From Niallia circulans (lineage in GTDB: Bacteria > Bacillota > Bacilli > Bacillales > Cytobacillaceae), in NCBI RefSeq assembly GCF_003726095.1, contig NZ_CP026031.1:2294001-2358000 (forward strand): 64,000 nucleotides of DNA, written 5' to 3'. The position numbers and the translations under genes were made by a program. How positions within the stretch are numbered: the stretch's first letter is position 1; every line of letters starts with the position of its first letter. This document shows positions 10,848-59,136 of this stretch, one piece after another. The notes beneath the pieces are model-generated. The model searched no databases and was not told the DNA's origin. It was given only the letters and a program-made list of their open reading frames with translations.

Positions 10848-11864
10848 TCACCTGTAGGCTTTGTTCGTCCCACACGTTTCCCTTACAATAATTTTAGAGT
10901 CTGTATACACTGGCTTTAATTTTGATTTTCCTTCTATCAAGTCATTTAGCATAAAAGCAGATAATTTACCGATTTTCTCCTTATCCTGTTTGACCGTGGT
11001 CAATTTAGGATCACTATAGCGGGAAGCAGCAATATCATCACATCCTACAATTCGGATGTTTCTAGGTGTATGAAGTCCAGCTTCCTTAATAGCTCTTAGT
11101 GCACCTAAAGCCATTAAGTCGGATGCAGCAAAAATAGCTTCTGGATAATCCTTCAACTCTAGTATTCTCTTCATTGCGATATAACCACTCTCTTCATGGT
11201 AATCTCCATATTGAATCCACTCTTCCCTGATTTCAAGACCAAACTGATTCATCGCATCCTTGAATCCCTTTAACCTTAAATTAGAAATGACGGATTCACT
11301 CATCCCGCCAATATAGCCAATTTTTCTAAGAGAATTCAAATAAAAATGCTCTACTACTTTCCTTGATAAATTTACATTGTCCGTCATGACGTAGCTCGCT
11401 TTTGGACCTACTAATTCAATATCAATTCCAATACAAGGAAAACCGCTCTCAGCAAGTTCAAAAGTAGCGTCCTCTACTTCTTCACCTGCAATTATCAAGC
11501 AGCCATCCAAATTAAAGTGCTTGCATCTTGCTAAATAACTTCCTTGAAATTGTTCATTAGAAAACATTAAGATATCGTATCCAAGTAATCCAATATTTTT
11601 CTTAAAAGTCGAAATAACTTCATTAAAATATGGATGGGTCATGTCTACATTGATTTTACCTGCATAGACAAGACCAATGAGATTTGATTTTTTCGTTGCC
11701 AGTGACCGAGCCGAAAAATTTGGTGCGTAGCCCTTTTCATTAATAACTGTCATGACTTTTTTTCTAGTCATCTCACTTATTTCGCCATAATTATTTAATA
11801 CTTTCGAAACGGTTGATGGTGATACCCCTGCCAATTGTGCAATGTCCTTTATCGTTAAACTCAT
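10848..11864 (-). CDS. LacI family transcriptional regulator
   Basis: About 338 residues from the ATG at 11864, which has a GAAGGG site upstream and puts the helix-turn-helix at the N-terminus as in all LacI members (LTIKDIAQLAGVSPSTVSKVLNNYG). The C-terminal part is a periplasmic-binding-protein-like sensor domain, ending with CDDIAASRYSDPKLTTV. It lies between the permease genes and the ROK kinase in the same direction, so it likely controls this operon. Two LacI-type palindromes upstream of the binding-protein gene (15411-15424 and 15589-15602) are the expected targets. A longer frame to 11942 is open but lacks a good ribosome binding site. Confidence 0.9.
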   Translation of the reverse strand: MSLTIKDIAQLAGVSPSTVSKVLNNYGEISEMTRKKVMTVINEKGYAPNFSARSLATKKSNLIGLVYAGKINVDMTHPYFNEVISTFKKNIGLLGYDILMFSNEQFQGSYLARCKHFNLDGCLIIAGEEVEDATFELAESGFPCIGIDIELVGPKASYVMTDNVNLSRKVVEHFYLNSLRKIGYIGGMSESVISNLRLKGFKDAMNQFGLEIREEWIQYGDYHEESGYIAMKRILELKDYPEAIFAASDLMALGALRAIKEAGLHTPRNIRIVGCDDIAASRYSDPKLTTVKQDKEKIGKLSAFMLNDLIEGKSKLKPVYTDSKIIVRETCGTNKAYR

Positions 11865-53370: not shown

Positions 53371-53871
53371 ATGTTATTCATTTAAAAAAGCATTTTTTGT
53401 AACAATTGTTTTCAGTATTATGGCTACTTTTAACATCTATTCAAAAGCAGAAGAAGGAGAAACACAGATTTTAGAGCCAAAAACATCTGAAGATAAAATT
53501 TTCCAAGAAGTAAAATATACGGTTGAAGGAGAAGATAAACATATATATGGTAATAAGAAGGTTAGTGAAGATGCAGAAGCATACAAAATAATCCTAAATA
53601 AAGATGAAGGTACTTATGAAGTGGAGAAAAAGGAGGTAACAGAAAGTAAATCACCTGTCTTTTCAACATTAGCCACTACTAAAGCAGATTTAAAAGTTGT
53701 AGGTAAAGCAGCTTTCCATAATTATGATTTCTTAGATAACGATAAATTACGAATGTACGACATGTTGTAAAAATAGTAGCTAAAAATAATGGAACATATG
53801 ATTATTTTGTAGATTGGGTAAGAAGTGGAGAAAGTTGGATACTTCTTGATTTATATGTAGAAGTTAATTAA
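53371..53871 (+). pseudogene. Secreted protein gene with two frameshifts, unknown function
   Basis: The open frame at 53420-53770 extends upstream as a signal peptide (KKAFFVTIVFSIMATFNIYSKA), but its natural ATG at 53371 is out of frame by one base. Near 53757 the frame breaks again: the following frame reads RHVVKIVAKNNGTYDYFVD and ends at 53871. Read together it is a secreted protein of about 165 residues. I do not recognise the family. It has a clear terminator right after it, so it was a complete gene. It lies just beyond the conserved segment, in an accessory region. Confidence 0.65.
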
Positions 53872-53888
53872 ATAAATGTTATTCAATG

Positions 53889-53924
53889 AAAAAAGCTGAC
53901 AGTTAATGAGTCAGCCTTTTTTTA
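53889..53924 (+). terminator. Terminator after the secreted-protein pseudogene
   Basis: Arms AAAAGCTGAC and GTCAGCCTTTT followed by a T run. The 395 bases from here to the next gene are very AT-rich. Confidence 0.85.
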
Positions 53925-54319
53925 TTAAATAATATAAAAGAACACTTAAAGGAATTAAAGGTAGAAACACTAAGTTTCTGAATATGTTTTCTGCTCCGAA
54001 AAAATAATATGAGATTGGTAAAATAGATAATATACTTAATGTTAATAATTTTAATGATTTTTTAACATACCAAAAATAATATTAATTCTATTTTGTACAC
54101 TTAATTAATAATTCCGCGAACTGTTTTGGTTATCTAACATTGTTTTTACTAAATTATCTTTAAATATTGGGAAACTATTAAATGTTCATTTCAACTTCTT
54201 TTAGTTATTGAAATTTTGAAAAAATAATATTTTTCGACATTTTTAAACTTTTTTTTTAATTCTTAAATTGTATAATATTGTCATAAATAAAATATTTTCA
54301 ATATTACGGAGGAACAGAA

Positions 54320-55555
54320 TTGTCTAATATATTTAAAGTAAAAAATTTCAATTTTTACTTTCTAGGGAATTTATTCTCTGGTATAGGAGATGCAATATTC
54401 ACAATAACTTTATCTTGGTACATTGTAGATGTCCATCAATCTGGTTACATAATGGGAACAGTATTACTATTAATGGGAATTGCAAGATTTGTCTTTGGTC
54501 TTATAGGTGGCGCCATAGTAGATAACATGGGTCCTAGAAGAGTTATGATTTCATCTGATTTATTAAGAGGTATAATTATTGCTGTCTTTTATTCATTCTT
54601 TATCTTTTCTACCATACCATTATGGCTAATTATCATAATTTCTATCACTTTTGGGATAGTTGATGCGTTTTATTGGCCAGCAGCAGATGCCATTAAGCCA
54701 AGACTAGTAGCTAAAGAATTATACTCAAAAGCAAACAGCAGTTATTATACTATGGTAAGAATTTTAAACATTGTTGGTCCAGCAATTGGTGGATTTTTAC
54801 TTGGCTTATATTCTTATAGTTTAATATACCTGCTCATTTTCATATCTTTTATACTATCTGCAATCTCAATCAATTTTATCGATTTAAAAGAGGAAAGAAT
54901 AAAATATATAAATAAAGGTGGGAAAATAGTAAGAAAATTTATTGATGATGTAGTGGAAGGCTTACTCTTTGTCAAAAATGAAAAAATTCTAATCATACTC
55001 ATTAGTACAATGACATTAGCAAATATAGGGGCTAACGGAATTATGGCCGTATTACCTTTTCAAGTAAAGGTATTAGAATTCGGAGCAAATGGTCTTGGAA
55101 TGTTACAAATGTCTTTAGCTTTAGGATCAGCTATAGCTGGTGGAATATTTACATTCAAATCAATTAAGACACCATCTTTGAATTATGTTCTCATCGGCTT
55201 CCTTGGTCAAGGTGTTTTCTTTGGAATAATTACTTGGTTTAATTCTTTTACTTATATTCTAGTATCCTTATTTATTGTTGGTATTTTTACTGCTCTTGTA
55301 GGAGTATTTATTCCTACTATACTTCAAACTATTGTTCCACAACAACTTATGGGACGAGTTAGTAGTGTATTGATGACTTTTTCAATGGCGTCAACACCTA
55401 TTTCCCACTTTATTTTCGGTTTCTTAACTGATCTTTACAGTCCTTCTATAATGTTTCTTATTGCTGGATTAATAGAAACCGCTGTTGCACTTATTGCCTT
55501 ATTTTATGTAAAGAAATTGAAATTAAAACAAGTATTAGAAAGGAAAGCTATTTAA
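54320..55555 (+). CDS. MFS transporter of the RiPP-like cluster (probable peptide exporter)
   Basis: 411 residues with 10-12 membrane segments, major facilitator superfamily of the drug/macrolide efflux type; the loop motif GGAIVDNMGPRRVMISSDLLRG after the second helix is the signature MFS motif A. The start is TTG with GGAGG seven bases upstream. A TATAAT box is at 54271-54276, without a good -35 element. Its stop codon is one base from the flavoprotein start, so the two are cotranscribed. In this setting it likely exports the modified peptide or gives self-protection. No ABC exporter or protease accompanies it. Confidence 0.8.
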   Translation: MSNIFKVKNFNFYFLGNLFSGIGDAIFTITLSWYIVDVHQSGYIMGTVLLLMGIARFVFGLIGGAIVDNMGPRRVMISSDLLRGIIIAVFYSFFIFSTIPLWLIIIISITFGIVDAFYWPAADAIKPRLVAKELYSKANSSYYTMVRILNIVGPAIGGFLLGLYSYSLIYLLIFISFILSAISINFIDLKEERIKYINKGGKIVRKFIDDVVEGLLFVKNEKILIILISTMTLANIGANGIMAVLPFQVKVLEFGANGLGMLQMSLALGSAIAGGIFTFKSIKTPSLNYVLIGFLGQGVFFGIITWFNSFTYILVSLFIVGIFTALVGVFIPTILQTIVPQQLMGRVSSVLMTFSMASTPISHFIFGFLTDLYSPSIMFLIAGLIETAVALIALFYVKKLKLKQVLERKAI

Positions 55556-55556
55556 A

Positions 55557-56129
55557 ATGAACTTATTAATTGGAGTTACAGGGTCTTCTGGTTTAATTGA
55601 GTTACCTCTTTACATTAGAATTTTCAAAGAAAAGTTAAATGCAGACATTAAAATAGTAGCTTCACCAAATGTTAAGAACTTCATATCCTTAGAATTTTTA
55701 AATGCATTAGTAGAAAACCAACTATATAGTGATTTTTATCAAAGTAAGAATGGAATTAATGTTCCCCATTCTGACTTGAATGATTGGGCTAATGCTTTCA
55801 TTATACTACCATGCACAGCTAATACACTTGCCAAAGCAGCTAATGGTACTACAGATGACTTATTATCAATGCTTATTCTTTGTAGTCAGGTACCTGTTAT
55901 ATTCTTCCCTAATATGAATCCCAACATGTGGAGTAAACCTGTTGTCCAGCGTAATGCTAAGTTGCTTATCAATGATGGTCACAAAGTAGCTATACCTAAT
56001 GGAAACGGATGGATAACAGCAACTGGAGAATCAGTTGAAAATGGACACATGCCTCCCCCTTACGCTGCAGCAGAATATATCAGAAAAATTTATAACATAA
56101 ACAATACTGAAACTTCAGTTAACAATTAG
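55557..56129 (+). CDS. HFCD flavoprotein, EpiD/LanD-like peptidyl-cysteine decarboxylase
   Basis: 190 residues. It belongs to the homo-oligomeric flavin-containing Cys decarboxylases. Catalytic His71 is in VPHSDLNDWA, the PASANT-type motif reads PCTANT (85-90) and is followed by LAKAANGTTDDLL, and the substrate-recognition motif PNMNPNMW (118-125) matches PxMNxxMW. Members such as EpiD and CypD oxidatively decarboxylate the C-terminal Cys of a precursor peptide to an aminoenethiol. The next gene encodes a small peptide that ends in Cys, so substrate and enzyme fit. Other members (CoaC/Dfp) are much longer or lie with CoA genes, so they are unlikely here. Confidence 0.88.
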   Translation: MNLLIGVTGSSGLIELPLYIRIFKEKLNADIKIVASPNVKNFISLEFLNALVENQLYSDFYQSKNGINVPHSDLNDWANAFIILPCTANTLAKAANGTTDDLLSMLILCSQVPVIFFPNMNPNMWSKPVVQRNAKLLINDGHKVAIPNGNGWITATGESVENGHMPPPYAAAEYIRKIYNINNTETSVNN

Positions 56130-56166
56130 TTTAATACAATCCTTTACTTGAAAGGGGGTGAAAGAT

Positions 56167-56286
56167 ATGGAAGAATTAGGAATTTTGGATTTGTCAATAG
56201 GTTTTGACTGCCTAGATACAACCAATGAAGATATGGATCTTCTTATTCGTGGTGCAGTAGCAAATACTAATTGCAACAGTTGCTGA
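56167..56286 (+). CDS. RiPP precursor peptide ending in CxxC
   Basis: 39 residues, not noticed without reading the gap. It begins MEELGILDLSIGFDCLDTT, continues with an acidic stretch (NEDMDLLIRGAVA) and ends NTNCNSC, with cysteines at 15, 36 and 39. An AAAGGGGGTG site six bases upstream makes translation credible. It lies between the decarboxylase and the radical SAM gene. The C-terminal Cys is the expected EpiD-type substrate, and CxxC at the end matches the layout of cypemycin. No Gly-Gly leader cleavage site is obvious; leader and core border cannot be fixed. Confidence 0.8.
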   Translation: MEELGILDLSIGFDCLDTTNEDMDLLIRGAVANTNCNSC

Positions 56287-56340
56287 TTTAGTATATAACT
56301 ACTTTACTAACTTGGGATTTTTTTATCTAATGTATCACTT

Positions 56341-56367
56341 AAAAGGAGGAATATTTTTCCTCCTTTT
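56341..56367 (+). promoter_or_regulatory. Hairpin attenuator between precursor and radical SAM gene
   Basis: Arms AAAAGGAGGAA and TTCCTCCTTTT around a short T-rich loop, with ATCTTT after it. Such partial terminators after precursor genes give more precursor than enzyme mRNA. That role is inferred. Confidence 0.65.
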
Positions 56368-56390
56368 ATCTTTAGAAAGGCGGGATTTTC

Positions 56391-57767
56391 TTGGAACCAT
56401 TTGTTAAGATACCAAAGGAAAATAAATTAATTGAAACTAAAGAATGGAAAAGATCTAGGTATACAATACAAGCGTCTGATGAGTTAGACGGCAGTTTATA
56501 CCTTTCTAATACATATACGGGGTCATTTATCAGCGTTCCAGAGCAACATGTATCTAATGTTAAAAAAATACTTAGTCAAGGTTATAATGGAGACTTAGAA
56601 GGTCTGCCTAAATTACTTGCTGAGCGTGGATTTATCGTCAAAGAGGATACAAATGAACTATTTAGAGCCCGTATGTTACACGAAATTGTCGGCAGAAGAG
56701 ATGACACATTACAATTAATCTTTCTTGTAACTGAGCAGTGTAACTTTAGATGTACATATTGCTATGAAAAGTTTGAAAAAGGTAAGATGACTCAGGAAGT
56801 TCGTAATGGTATTAAAGAGTATGTTAGAAGCAAAGCAAGATACTTAAAATATTTAAACATTCACTGGTTCGGAGGAGAACCATTAATAGCTATGGATGTT
56901 ATTGAAGATTTATCTGAAGCATTTAAACAAATATGTGAGGAGTATGACATCACATATACAGCAAGTGTTACAACAAATGGTTTCAATTTAACACCAAAAA
57001 ACGTAGAAAAATTAATAAATTACAATGTATCATACTTTCAAGTCACTGTTGACGGTAATCCCGAATATCACAATTGTACTCGACACTTAAAAGGAGGACA
57101 ACCTACCTTTGACAAGATTTGGAGTAATTTGAAAGCAATGAAAGCAATGGAAGCTAAATTCCTATGTAGAATTAGGGTGAATTTCCTTAAGGAAAACTTG
57201 GAAGGAGTACCTGATTTTATTGATGAAATTGTGAAAGAGTTTGATTGTGATGAGAGATATGCTGTTAACTTTTTCCCTGTTGGTCAATGGGGGGGAGAAA
57301 ATGACGAAGACTTAAATGTTCTTTCGGAAAAAGATGCAACAAATGCTGCACTAAGTTTATGTGACCTAGCTGTAGAAAAAGGTTTAAATAATGTAATGGA
57401 TAGTATACTTAAACCCGGCGGAAACGTCTGCTATGCTGCAAAGCATAATTCTTTTGTGATTGGTTCAGATGGAATTGTTTATAAATGCACAGTTGCATTA
57501 TACAACGAAAAAAATCATGTAGGTAGAATTCACCCAGATGGAAAAATGACACTTGATATGGACAAATACGCACTTTGGATAATGAATGATGAAGGTGAAG
57601 ACCCGGGTTGTCAAAAATGTTTCTTTAGACCATCTTGTCAAGGTGCTGCATGTCCACTAGTTAGAATTGAGACAGGAAAGGCTCCATGTCCACCAGAAAA
57701 AAAACAAATTAAAAGAGTTTTAAAAATTGTCGGAAGGGAAAAAAAACGATCATATGTTAATACTTGA
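56391..57767 (+). CDS. Radical SAM/SPASM peptide-modifying enzyme
   Basis: 458 residues. An N-terminal domain of about 100 residues (YLSNTYTGSFISVPEQHV) may bind the leader peptide. The radical SAM cluster is CNFRCTYC with cysteines 117, 121 and 124, followed by GGEP at 161-164. The C-terminal SPASM part has cysteines in GGNVCYAAKHNSF, VYKCTV, GCQKCFFRPSCQGAACP and APCPP, enough for two auxiliary iron-sulfur clusters. Related enzymes form thioethers or C-C crosslinks in small peptides. The start is TTG with an AAAGGCGGG site. It is the last gene of the cluster and is followed by a terminator. Which residue is modified is unknown. Confidence 0.88.
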   Translation: MEPFVKIPKENKLIETKEWKRSRYTIQASDELDGSLYLSNTYTGSFISVPEQHVSNVKKILSQGYNGDLEGLPKLLAERGFIVKEDTNELFRARMLHEIVGRRDDTLQLIFLVTEQCNFRCTYCYEKFEKGKMTQEVRNGIKEYVRSKARYLKYLNIHWFGGEPLIAMDVIEDLSEAFKQICEEYDITYTASVTTNGFNLTPKNVEKLINYNVSYFQVTVDGNPEYHNCTRHLKGGQPTFDKIWSNLKAMKAMEAKFLCRIRVNFLKENLEGVPDFIDEIVKEFDCDERYAVNFFPVGQWGGENDEDLNVLSEKDATNAALSLCDLAVEKGLNNVMDSILKPGGNVCYAAKHNSFVIGSDGIVYKCTVALYNEKNHVGRIHPDGKMTLDMDKYALWIMNDEGEDPGCQKCFFRPSCQGAACPLVRIETGKAPCPPEKKQIKRVLKIVGREKKRSYVNT

Positions 57768-57775
57768 TAGAGGAT

Positions 57776-57809
57776 TAAAAAACCCAACTCTTATTGAGCG
57801 GGGTTTTTG
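57776..57809 (+). terminator. Terminator of the RiPP-like cluster
   Basis: Arms AAAAACCCAACTC and GAGCGGGGTTTTT around TTATT, close after the radical SAM stop codon. It marks the 3' end of the operon. Confidence 0.85.
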
Positions 57810-58565
57810 TATATAGAAATTTATATTGTTTACGACACTTAAGCAAAATTATTACCTTCCACAAGTTTTGACCTTCCGTTAAAGTAAGTTAGGTTATCAA
57901 ATGCATAACTTATCCAACCTACTAACAATCTGTGTCTACTTTTAGTCTAGCATCAGGATTTTATTGCAGTTGTAGAATTTGATAATTAGGTGAGGTGTTG
58001 AAATAAAATGAATGACAAAAGAAAAAGACAGTTATTTATTCTATTTCTGGTAATCGTTATATTAACTAACTTATTATATAATGTATTTCCTAATTCTTGG
58101 AGATAATAAGTAGTGGTTTTCATTTTATACTTACTTACTCTAATACTATTCTTTGCTGAGAATTTATATAGATTCCTTTCAAACAAGAATATTACTCCCC
58201 TTCTATATTTAACATTAAATAGATTATATACAATTCTTAATATTAATTAAAATCATAAATGTTAATTTTATGTAAAATACATTAATGTAAAAATTCTTTA
58301 GCAATTTCTTATATATCTTTATATTTAATATAAACTTCAATTACTTTAAGTGTTTTAATAAAAAATAATAGTCTATAATTTTAATATAAACATTAATAAT
58401 ATATATTATTAAAACAAAACCAATATTAATAGACAAATAACAATGATTTTTCTACTATCATAGAGGTATACATTAAATAAAATATAAATAAAATCGATTT
58501 AATCACAAGTTATCCACCCCCATATATTTCCTTTTATCAACAAACAAATTAAAAGAAGTGACAAC
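57810..58565. other. AT-rich accessory spacer
   Basis: Apart from the 32-codon frame at 58008 I see no gene. There is a diffuse inverted repeat at about 57886-57928 (GTTAGGTT/AACCTACTAAC) and very AT-rich sequence at 58190-58490. Confidence 0.4.
58008..58106 (+). CDS. Possible 32-residue membrane peptide
   Basis: A 32-codon frame that begins MNDKRKRQLFILFLVIVILT and has one hydrophobic helix after a basic N-terminus, typical of small single-pass membrane proteins. A GGTGAGGTG stretch lies about 12 bases upstream of the ATG, a little far. No known family. It is downstream of the RiPP-like cluster terminator and could be unrelated, or a small immunity-type protein. Compositional bias of AT-rich DNA could produce such a frame by chance. 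Confidence 0.35.
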   Translation: MNDKRKRQLFILFLVIVILTNLLYNVFPNSWR

Positions 58566-59012
58566 ATGGTAGAAAAAAAGATTTTATCTCTTTCTGAAAG
58601 AAATTCGTTAACCTTTGTAGAAACAGATTCTTCGATTGTATCTTTTTCGAAAAAACTAATAGATCCATCTCTTATAACTGAATTATCGATGAGTTACTCG
58701 TTTTGGAGGATGTGTCTGCCAATGAAGGGATAAAAATGATTTATATATATTACTACATCCAAAAAAGGATATGGATAAACGGAAAAATAGAATGGAAAAT
58801 ACGATTGAGGAATATAGCAGAGATTTATTAATCGTGTACAAACAATTATTAGAAAATGTATCCAGTTTGGGTTGGACATATCTTCACTGCAAAAACTATT
58901 TCAATTATTTAAAGTACTTCATCAAATATATATCCAAAAGTTTCAAGATTGGCTATCGATAATGCCGTTAGAGGAGGAGCATAACGTTAAATCGGAAAAT
59001 AACCATTCTTAA
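58566..59012 (+). pseudogene. Multiply frameshifted gene remnant, unknown family
   Basis: Three successive frames give protein-like text: MVEKKILSLSERNSLTFVET from 58566, then DELLVLEDVSANEGIKMIYI in another frame, then MENTIEEYSRDLLIVYKQLL from about 58792 and LFKVLHQIYIQKFQDWL to a stop at 59012. A terminator follows. The last part faintly resembles the start of site-specific recombinases, but I cannot name the family. The gene is clearly broken in at least two places, which suggests decay of an acquired element. Confidence 0.5.
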
Positions 59013-59034
59013 AGGATTATTTTCGTTTTTATAT
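58994..59034 (+). terminator. Terminator of the decayed gene
   Basis: Arms GAAAATAA and TTATTTTC with inner pairs, followed by GTTTTTAT. It overlaps the last codons of the remnant. Confidence 0.7.
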
Positions 59035-59058
59035 AAAATGAAATATATATAGATTCCG

Positions 59059-59136
59059 TTACATAGCCCATGTACCGAAACTGACTTCACTGGTTTTTAG
59101 ACCGGTACCCCCTAAATTTCTGTAATTCATTTCCAT
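59059..59136 (-). pseudogene. Aldo/keto reductase, N-terminal fragment of 25 codons
   Basis: From the ATG at 59136, or the next at 59130, the frame reads MNYRNLGGTGLKTSEVSFGT and WAM, then stops. This is the typical first strand and loop of aldo/keto reductases, and GGAGG lies upstream of the ATG. The rest of the gene (normally about 300 codons) is gone, and a decayed gene on the other strand begins beyond it, so this is a deletion scar. The remaining 59137-59430 holds no gene I can see apart from the promoter region of the ROK repressor. Confidence 0.7.

Follow-up and report, generated by a model that had tools for sequence, protein, structure and literature searches.

A conserved flavoprotein and radical SAM gene cluster of Niallia circulans that probably makes an AviCamCys-type peptide

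Introduction

Flavoproteins can work together with radical S-adenosylmethionine (SAM) enzymes to make S-[2-aminovinyl]-3-carbamoylcysteine (AviCamCys), according to the accessible part of a paper (PMC11162475) that cites Cheng et al. 2023 (doi 10.1002/anie.202308733), and in the ranthipeptide NxxcA a thioether joins Cys23 to the Cβ of Asn20 (PMC8326336, available in part). In this work, we analyzed a stretch of 64,000 nucleotides from Niallia circulans (contig NZ_CP026031.1, positions 2,294,001 to 2,358,000; hereafter the window), in which the genes of a major facilitator superfamily (MFS) transporter, an HFCD-type flavoprotein, a 39-aa precursor peptide, and a radical SAM/SPASM enzyme lie head to tail on one strand (54,320-57,767). 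An initial annotation had described these four genes as a cluster resembling those of ribosomally synthesized and post-translationally modified peptides (RiPPs); the coordinates and Pfam matches agree with it on the genes, and the cluster looks like one of the RiPP type. Its suggestion of an undescribed subclass is not supported, because the enzyme pair has already been reported and the neighborhood therefore occurs, at the level of that pair, in a named RiPP class (PMC11162475, citing Cheng et al. 2023, in the accessible part). A wholly new category of cluster was rejected on the strength of the same AviCamCys report. The pairing of flavoprotein and radical SAM enzyme is not described in the accessible parts of PMC12291118, PMC9415263, PMC7794033, PMC11002830, PMC10373908, PMC12328550, PMC12093266, and PMC12871766. 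We conclude that the cluster is a real and conserved one of the RiPP type whose enzyme logic was reported in 2023, and its core suggests two interlaced rings.

Results

We consider it probable that the cluster is a self-contained operon of the AviCamCys kind making an AviCamCys-type macrocycle, with all of the chemistry predicted. This reading is based on the HFCD family membership of the flavoprotein, the radical SAM/SPASM cysteines and CteB-nearest fold of the maturase, the conservation of the four-gene unit, the N-x-N-C-x-x-C end of the precursors with its Asn at -4, and the precedents of NxxcA and AviCamCys.

All 18 distinct type-A precursors, which are not independent observations because they are mostly Paenibacillus-like and represent about four lineages, end in N-x-N-C-x-x-C, with positions -1, -2, -5, and -7 variable (core residues are numbered from the terminal Cys as 0). 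N33, N35, C36, and C39 are the invariant columns of the alignment, and the terminal Cys noticed in the initial annotation (NTNCNSC in the window) is shared by the whole set. The leader carries a conserved D-x-L motif. A profile search of a protein database returned 10 precursor-like proteins including that of the window, and just 13 of the 2,165 open reading frames (ORFs) with lengths of 20-90 aa across 15 loci ended in NCxxC, each being the putative precursor of its locus. A chance ORF was ruled out by the nine other profile matches and these counts.

Asn occupies position -3 of the first Cys in 13 of 17 wider-clade cores, and 15 of the 17 contain NxxC; these counts partly reflect composition and kinship, as Asn is abundant in the cores and several of the rows are closely related. 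Among the 11 HFCD-linked cores tabulated, which include three other architectures, Asn stands at -4 of the terminal Cys in every one, and position -3 is Asn in three and Cys in eight. An Asn-Cβ thioether combined with a decarboxylated C-terminal Cys was inferred from the NxxC pattern ahead of the AviCamCys precedent. 3-Carbamoylcysteine is asparagine with a sulfur on Cβ, and AviCamCys therefore agrees with this proposal; Asn-4 as the likely partner of the terminal Cys was proposed after the precedent.

In the pathway that we propose, the leader with its D-x-L motif would recruit the radical SAM enzyme, which would abstract a hydrogen from the Cβ of a core Asn and bond that carbon to a Cys sulfur. 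The HFCD protein would oxidatively decarboxylate the C-terminal Cys (loss of CO2 and 2H), giving the aminovinyl thioether AviCamCys, a host protease would remove the leader, and the MFS protein would export the product. The ring in the window's subfamily most likely joins Asn-4 to Cys0, and Cys-3 and Asn-6 may form a second, interlaced ring. We only tentatively propose, as a possible though rather doubtful outcome, a pair of radical-made rings interlaced within a segment of seven residues, namely Asn-6(Cβ)-S-Cys-3 and Asn-4(Cβ)-S-vinyl from Cys0; if this were true, one radical SAM enzyme would make both NxxC and NxxxC thioethers, with one ring ending in AviCamCys. Such a bicyclic C-terminal motif was not found described in the literature searched, a weak negative given that this consisted of open-licence and few subscription papers, available in part. 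The full-length precursor has a computed monoisotopic mass of 4217.894 Da, and the computed mass shift for decarboxylation and one or two thioethers is -48.02 or -50.04 Da; the signature of -46 Da suggested earlier is correct for the decarboxylation and incomplete, since the thioethers lower it further.

The solved sequences closest to the flavoprotein are SpaF (7cfu), MrsD, and EpiD, at about 30-34% identity, which places it nearest the peptide decarboxylases and not the pantothenate proteins, as the initial annotation had expected. His71, PCTANT, and PNMNPNMW, the motifs it had pointed out, are all present; the Trp of PxMNxxMW can be Tyr or Phe in relatives. SpaF and MrsD filled the first five Foldseek rows for the AlphaFold2 model (predicted local distance difference test score 85). 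In the genome's own CoaBC-like protein, the ACG motif has a Cys that we take to be the catalytic residue of phosphopantothenoylcysteine (PPC) decarboxylases, and C175S entries among the fold matches point to the same catalytic role. The window flavoprotein has Ala in this column, and the other 12 rows of the alignment, family members and LanD-like proteins, have Ala or Ser. The NCBIfam CypD model scored 33 bits, below its cut-off of 215. Family, catalytic His, and absence of the PPC decarboxylase Cys all agree with a predicted HFCD peptidyl-cysteine decarboxylase. A pantothenate-pathway origin was ruled out on sequence, by the peptide-decarboxylase neighbors and the lack of the CoaBC Cys.

The maturase is a radical SAM/SPASM protein, as first annotated, with CNFRCTYC and SPASM cysteines at 347, 366, 407, 410, 416, 421, and 433. 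Its fold is nearest to CteB, tied with anSME, at 20-21% identity, and it scores below the PapB, CefB, and TIGR04463 cut-offs (PapB model, 119.9 vs 340 bits). Few of the 50 fold rows listed (CteB and TigE, with MqnE and DesII in part) begin in the N-terminal approximately 80 residues, a candidate region for a RiPP recognition element that the fold comparison barely tested.

A scan of genome contigs found nine loci, all in Paenibacillus, and HFCD, short ORF, radical SAM, and MFS genes were present in 9/9, with the MFS gene downstream. The window's order, with the MFS gene upstream, was found in L015 (genome G106), L016 (G763), and L017 (G620), the last two genomes belonging to one genus, and the four-gene unit thus occurs in two gene orders in nine Paenibacillus contigs and three other genomes. 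The proteins P0003 (HFCD), P0021 (radical SAM), and P0147 (precursor) come from contigs of equal length, as do the two members of each of the HFCD/radical SAM pairs P0007/P0023, P0010/P0027, and P0013/P0026, which suggests that they are linked. At E <= 1e-35, the flavoprotein was found in 2 of the 398 genomes of the class, 3 of the 397 of the order, and 1 of the 13 of the genus, the window's genome being counted each time; in the family of G106, it was found in one of seven genomes, G106 itself. A phylum-level profile search gave 8/398: the window, G1068, and six genomes with 402-aa open frames of CoaBC-like size. All tblastn matches to plasmids (14 records), some of them from Priestia, and to phages (22 records) were below 60% identity, and none of 33 pattern matches in a viral-contig scan was confirmed. 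On the Priestia plasmid examined, NZ_CP041065.1 of Priestia megaterium (L018), a related flavoprotein lies in a class I lanthipeptide cluster with annotated dehydratase and LanC, a usual HFCD setting.

The maturase family is broader than the HFCD-linked unit. The 398 class genomes contained 25 radical SAM matches (E <= 1e-60) in 21 genomes, of which 24 were examined together with as much as about 8 kb of flanking sequence on either side, or less where a contig ended (G086, with a broken frame, was left out). HFCD genes were nearby in six of the 24 (the window, three places in G106, and two in G139), and G1068 from the phylum search is an additional case. On a radical SAM tree of 32 rows (6/9 Paenibacillus loci; L017 and G086 left out), the HFCD label was clustered, with 4 changes vs 10.8 after shuffling and none of 500 shuffles as low, to which near-copies contribute; a single gain followed by losses would fit this pattern, and so would repeated gains. 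Three further architectures were found: L025 encodes a 116-aa repeat peptide ending in NTNNNVC, an MFS-like protein, two TldD/PmbA-family proteins, HFCD, and radical SAM; L026 encodes radical SAM, a short weak-carrier protein (PF00550), a peptide ending in NCNNCWC, an S8 protease, and HFCD, and L070 has the same radical SAM-peptide-HFCD order; L036 encodes radical SAM, a peptide ending in NCHNC, HFCD, an S9 peptidase, and an MFS-like protein. The L025 precursor-like ORF (11371-11721, minus strand), upstream of the MFS-like gene, carries tandem TVPTQNTNNNVC repeats, with several cores in one peptide. The short protein at 6562-6951 of L026, between radical SAM and precursor, has a weak phosphopantetheine-carrier match, and the S8 protease of this locus also has a DUF1611 match.

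Precursor-like ORFs were recognized in 7 of the 18 HFCD-free loci, with the ends NCNC (L061, L065, L066, and L071), NCGCG (L074), NCNICTTP (L076), and NCDCK (L077). Cys is the last residue in four of these seven, so that its presence at the end of a peptide is not by itself a predictor of HFCD. No precursor was recognized for L063 or in the remaining 11 HFCD-free loci (L058-L060, L062, L064, L067-L069, L072, L073, and L075). The radical SAM relative of L071 has its own NNCNC ORF, and three identical 49-aa Ser/Cys-rich ORFs ending in CGSC lie about 1.8 kb downstream of it (11037-11577).

The distance from the AI-2E gene to the ROK gene is 6.3 kb in the window vs 1.4-1.6 kb in all four congeners fetched (L090-L093, taken from the 12 congeners with a recognized AI-2E gene), and no MFS, HFCD, or radical SAM match lies between the two genes in these four. 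The variable spot spans 53390-59062, about 5.7 kb in place of about 0.9 kb in L090. The cluster was probably acquired, because it is missing in these congeners and its HFCD gene occurs in a single genome of the genus. Within the inserted stretch, the only ORFs above 100 aa are MFS, HFCD, radical SAM, and an unmatched 116-aa ORF, and hence this stretch, to which the statement is confined, contains no dehydratase, LanC, YcaO, linaridin, or thioamidation enzyme, in line with the initial annotation. The 116-aa ORF (53420-53872) has no Pfam or NCBIfam match and is followed, past its stop, by coding-like sequence in another frame; it may be a decayed gene. The features of the cluster are listed in Table 1.

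Table 1. Features of the cluster, in window coordinates
Feature	Position	Strand	Evidence or remark
TATAAT hexamer, upstream of operon	54271..54276	+	read in the sequence; promoter unproven
MFS transporter, 411 aa, TTG start	54320..55555	+	PF07690 MFS_1, E 9e-36
HFCD-type peptidyl-cysteine decarboxylase (predicted), 190 aa	55557..56129	+	PF02441, E 1.5e-29
Ribosome-binding site of precursor, AAAGGGGGTG	56151..56160	+	sequence
Precursor peptide, 39 aa, MEELGILDLSIGFDCLDTTNEDMDLLIRGAVANTNCNSC	56167..56286	+	conserved position and C-terminal motif
Precursor C-terminal motif, residues 33-39, NTNCNSC (N-x-N-C-x-x-C)	56263..56283	+	likely modification site
Hairpin in precursor/radical SAM gap	56340..56368	+	-16.3 kcal/mol, z -3.66
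Radical SAM/SPASM maturase, 458 aa, TTG start	56391..57767	+	PF04055, E 3e-19
Terminator hairpin	57778..57808	+	-14.6 kcal/mol, z -4.05

The operon had been described as running from a TATAAT box to a terminator. The hexamer and the hairpin are both there, the latter with folding support despite its absence from the consensus-scan list; a promoter at the hexamer is unproven, because the scan listed no plus-strand promoter containing it and the number of promoter-like sites did not exceed that of shuffled sequences (22 vs a mean of 23.2). None of 200 shuffles was as stable as the hairpin between precursor and maturase genes. In five relatives (L001, L002, L007, L012, and L016, folded without shuffles), the corresponding gap also forms hairpins, which differ in sequence, and the position therefore seems to be kept more than the sequence. 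This hairpin is probably an attenuator or mRNA-stabilizing element and may keep the level of the peptide high relative to that of the enzyme, and the MFS protein is probably an exporter or immunity protein.

Discussion

The combination of flavoprotein and radical SAM enzyme offers an alternative to dehydratase chemistry for forming a C-terminal unsaturated thioether ring, in a compact four-gene system whose short invariant motif restricts the possible ring positions. The three additional architectures with candidate leader proteases, together with the HFCD-free sister maturases, could reveal how the decarboxylase joined a thioether pathway. One rule published for mining aminovinyl peptides requires that a Ser or Thr precede the terminal Cys by 3-7 positions (PMC11162475, in the accessible part). 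This rule would miss 7 of the 11 tabulated cores that are linked to an HFCD gene, but not the window's own.

Several observations weigh against an AviCamCys-type product. The cluster is known from its genes alone, and its product is predicted. Because the residue at -3 from the terminal Cys is Cys instead of Asn, the terminal Cys cannot take part in an i,i+3 ring like that of NxxcA. The CteB fold match of the maturase is tied with anSME, which is not known to make thioethers, and 18 of the 24 radical SAM relatives have no HFCD gene in the fetched flanks, some of them with Cys-ending precursor-like ORFs. For the flavoprotein, the Asn of PxMN is Ser or Gly in some relatives, the best NCBIfam match is CoaBC (104 bits, below the cut-off of 219.7), and the PPC decarboxylase 1mvn ranks sixth by fold, just after SpaF and MrsD and before EpiD, and thus fold alone cannot separate the two functions.

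The shared Pfam family and fold, together with this CoaBC match, would also suit a stray PPC decarboxylase homologue in an accidental neighborhood. We find that hardly credible, since the CoaBC Cys is present in 0/13 aligned family and LanD-like rows, the genome has a separate CoaBC-like protein, and the gene travels with the precursor and radical SAM genes across genera. The radical SAM enzyme might instead make only an NxxcA-like ring, from the Cβ of Asn-6 to the sulfur of Cys-3, with the HFCD enethiol hydrolyzed, reduced, or otherwise captured and no AviCamCys formed; N-x-N-C matches NxxC at Cys-3 in all 18 precursors, and the NxxC counts of the wider clade (13/17 and 15/17, with their share of composition and kinship) point the same way. 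This outcome is unlikely in our view, because a free enethiol is described as unstable (PMC12291118) and the AviCamCys precedent couples both activities (PMC11162475), each as given in the accessible part of the source. Capture of the Cys0 enethiol by a dehydroalanine from desulfurized Cys-3 would give an S-aminovinylcysteine ring as in cypemycin. The C-x-x-C end has what we take to be the cypemycin spacing; such a ring would leave the two invariant Asn unexplained, and the inserted stretch encodes no linaridin enzyme, so that we consider it quite improbable. An AviCamCys-type macrocycle remains our preferred reading.

Compared with known systems, the window flavoprotein belongs to the same family as SpaF and the LanD proteins of lanthipeptides (EpiD and MrsD), with the same His and a C-terminal Cys as substrate, whereas the window stretch contains no dehydratase or LanC and the core is built of Asn and Cys. 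Cypemycin-type linaridins (CypD) share an HFCD protein and a precursor with a C-terminal Cys, but linaridin enzymes are missing from the window stretch. To our knowledge, no decarboxylase takes part in the NxxcA/NxxcB and freyrasin pathways, in which they differ from the window cluster. They have a radical SAM/SPASM maturase in common with it (PapB for freyrasin), and the NxxC at Cys-3 is like that of NxxcA (PMC8326336, in the accessible part). The AviCamCys pathway, compared here through a citing description available in part (PMC11162475), has the same pair of LanD flavoprotein and radical SAM enzyme encoded with a precursor, and probably also the Asn carbon and the C-terminal Cys sulfur as partners. 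The residue name implies a nearby Asn and a C-terminal Cys, and Asn-4, Asn-6, and Cys0 are present in 18/18 precursors; the two invariant Asn and two invariant Cys of N-x-N-C-x-x-C in the window family would allow two rings.

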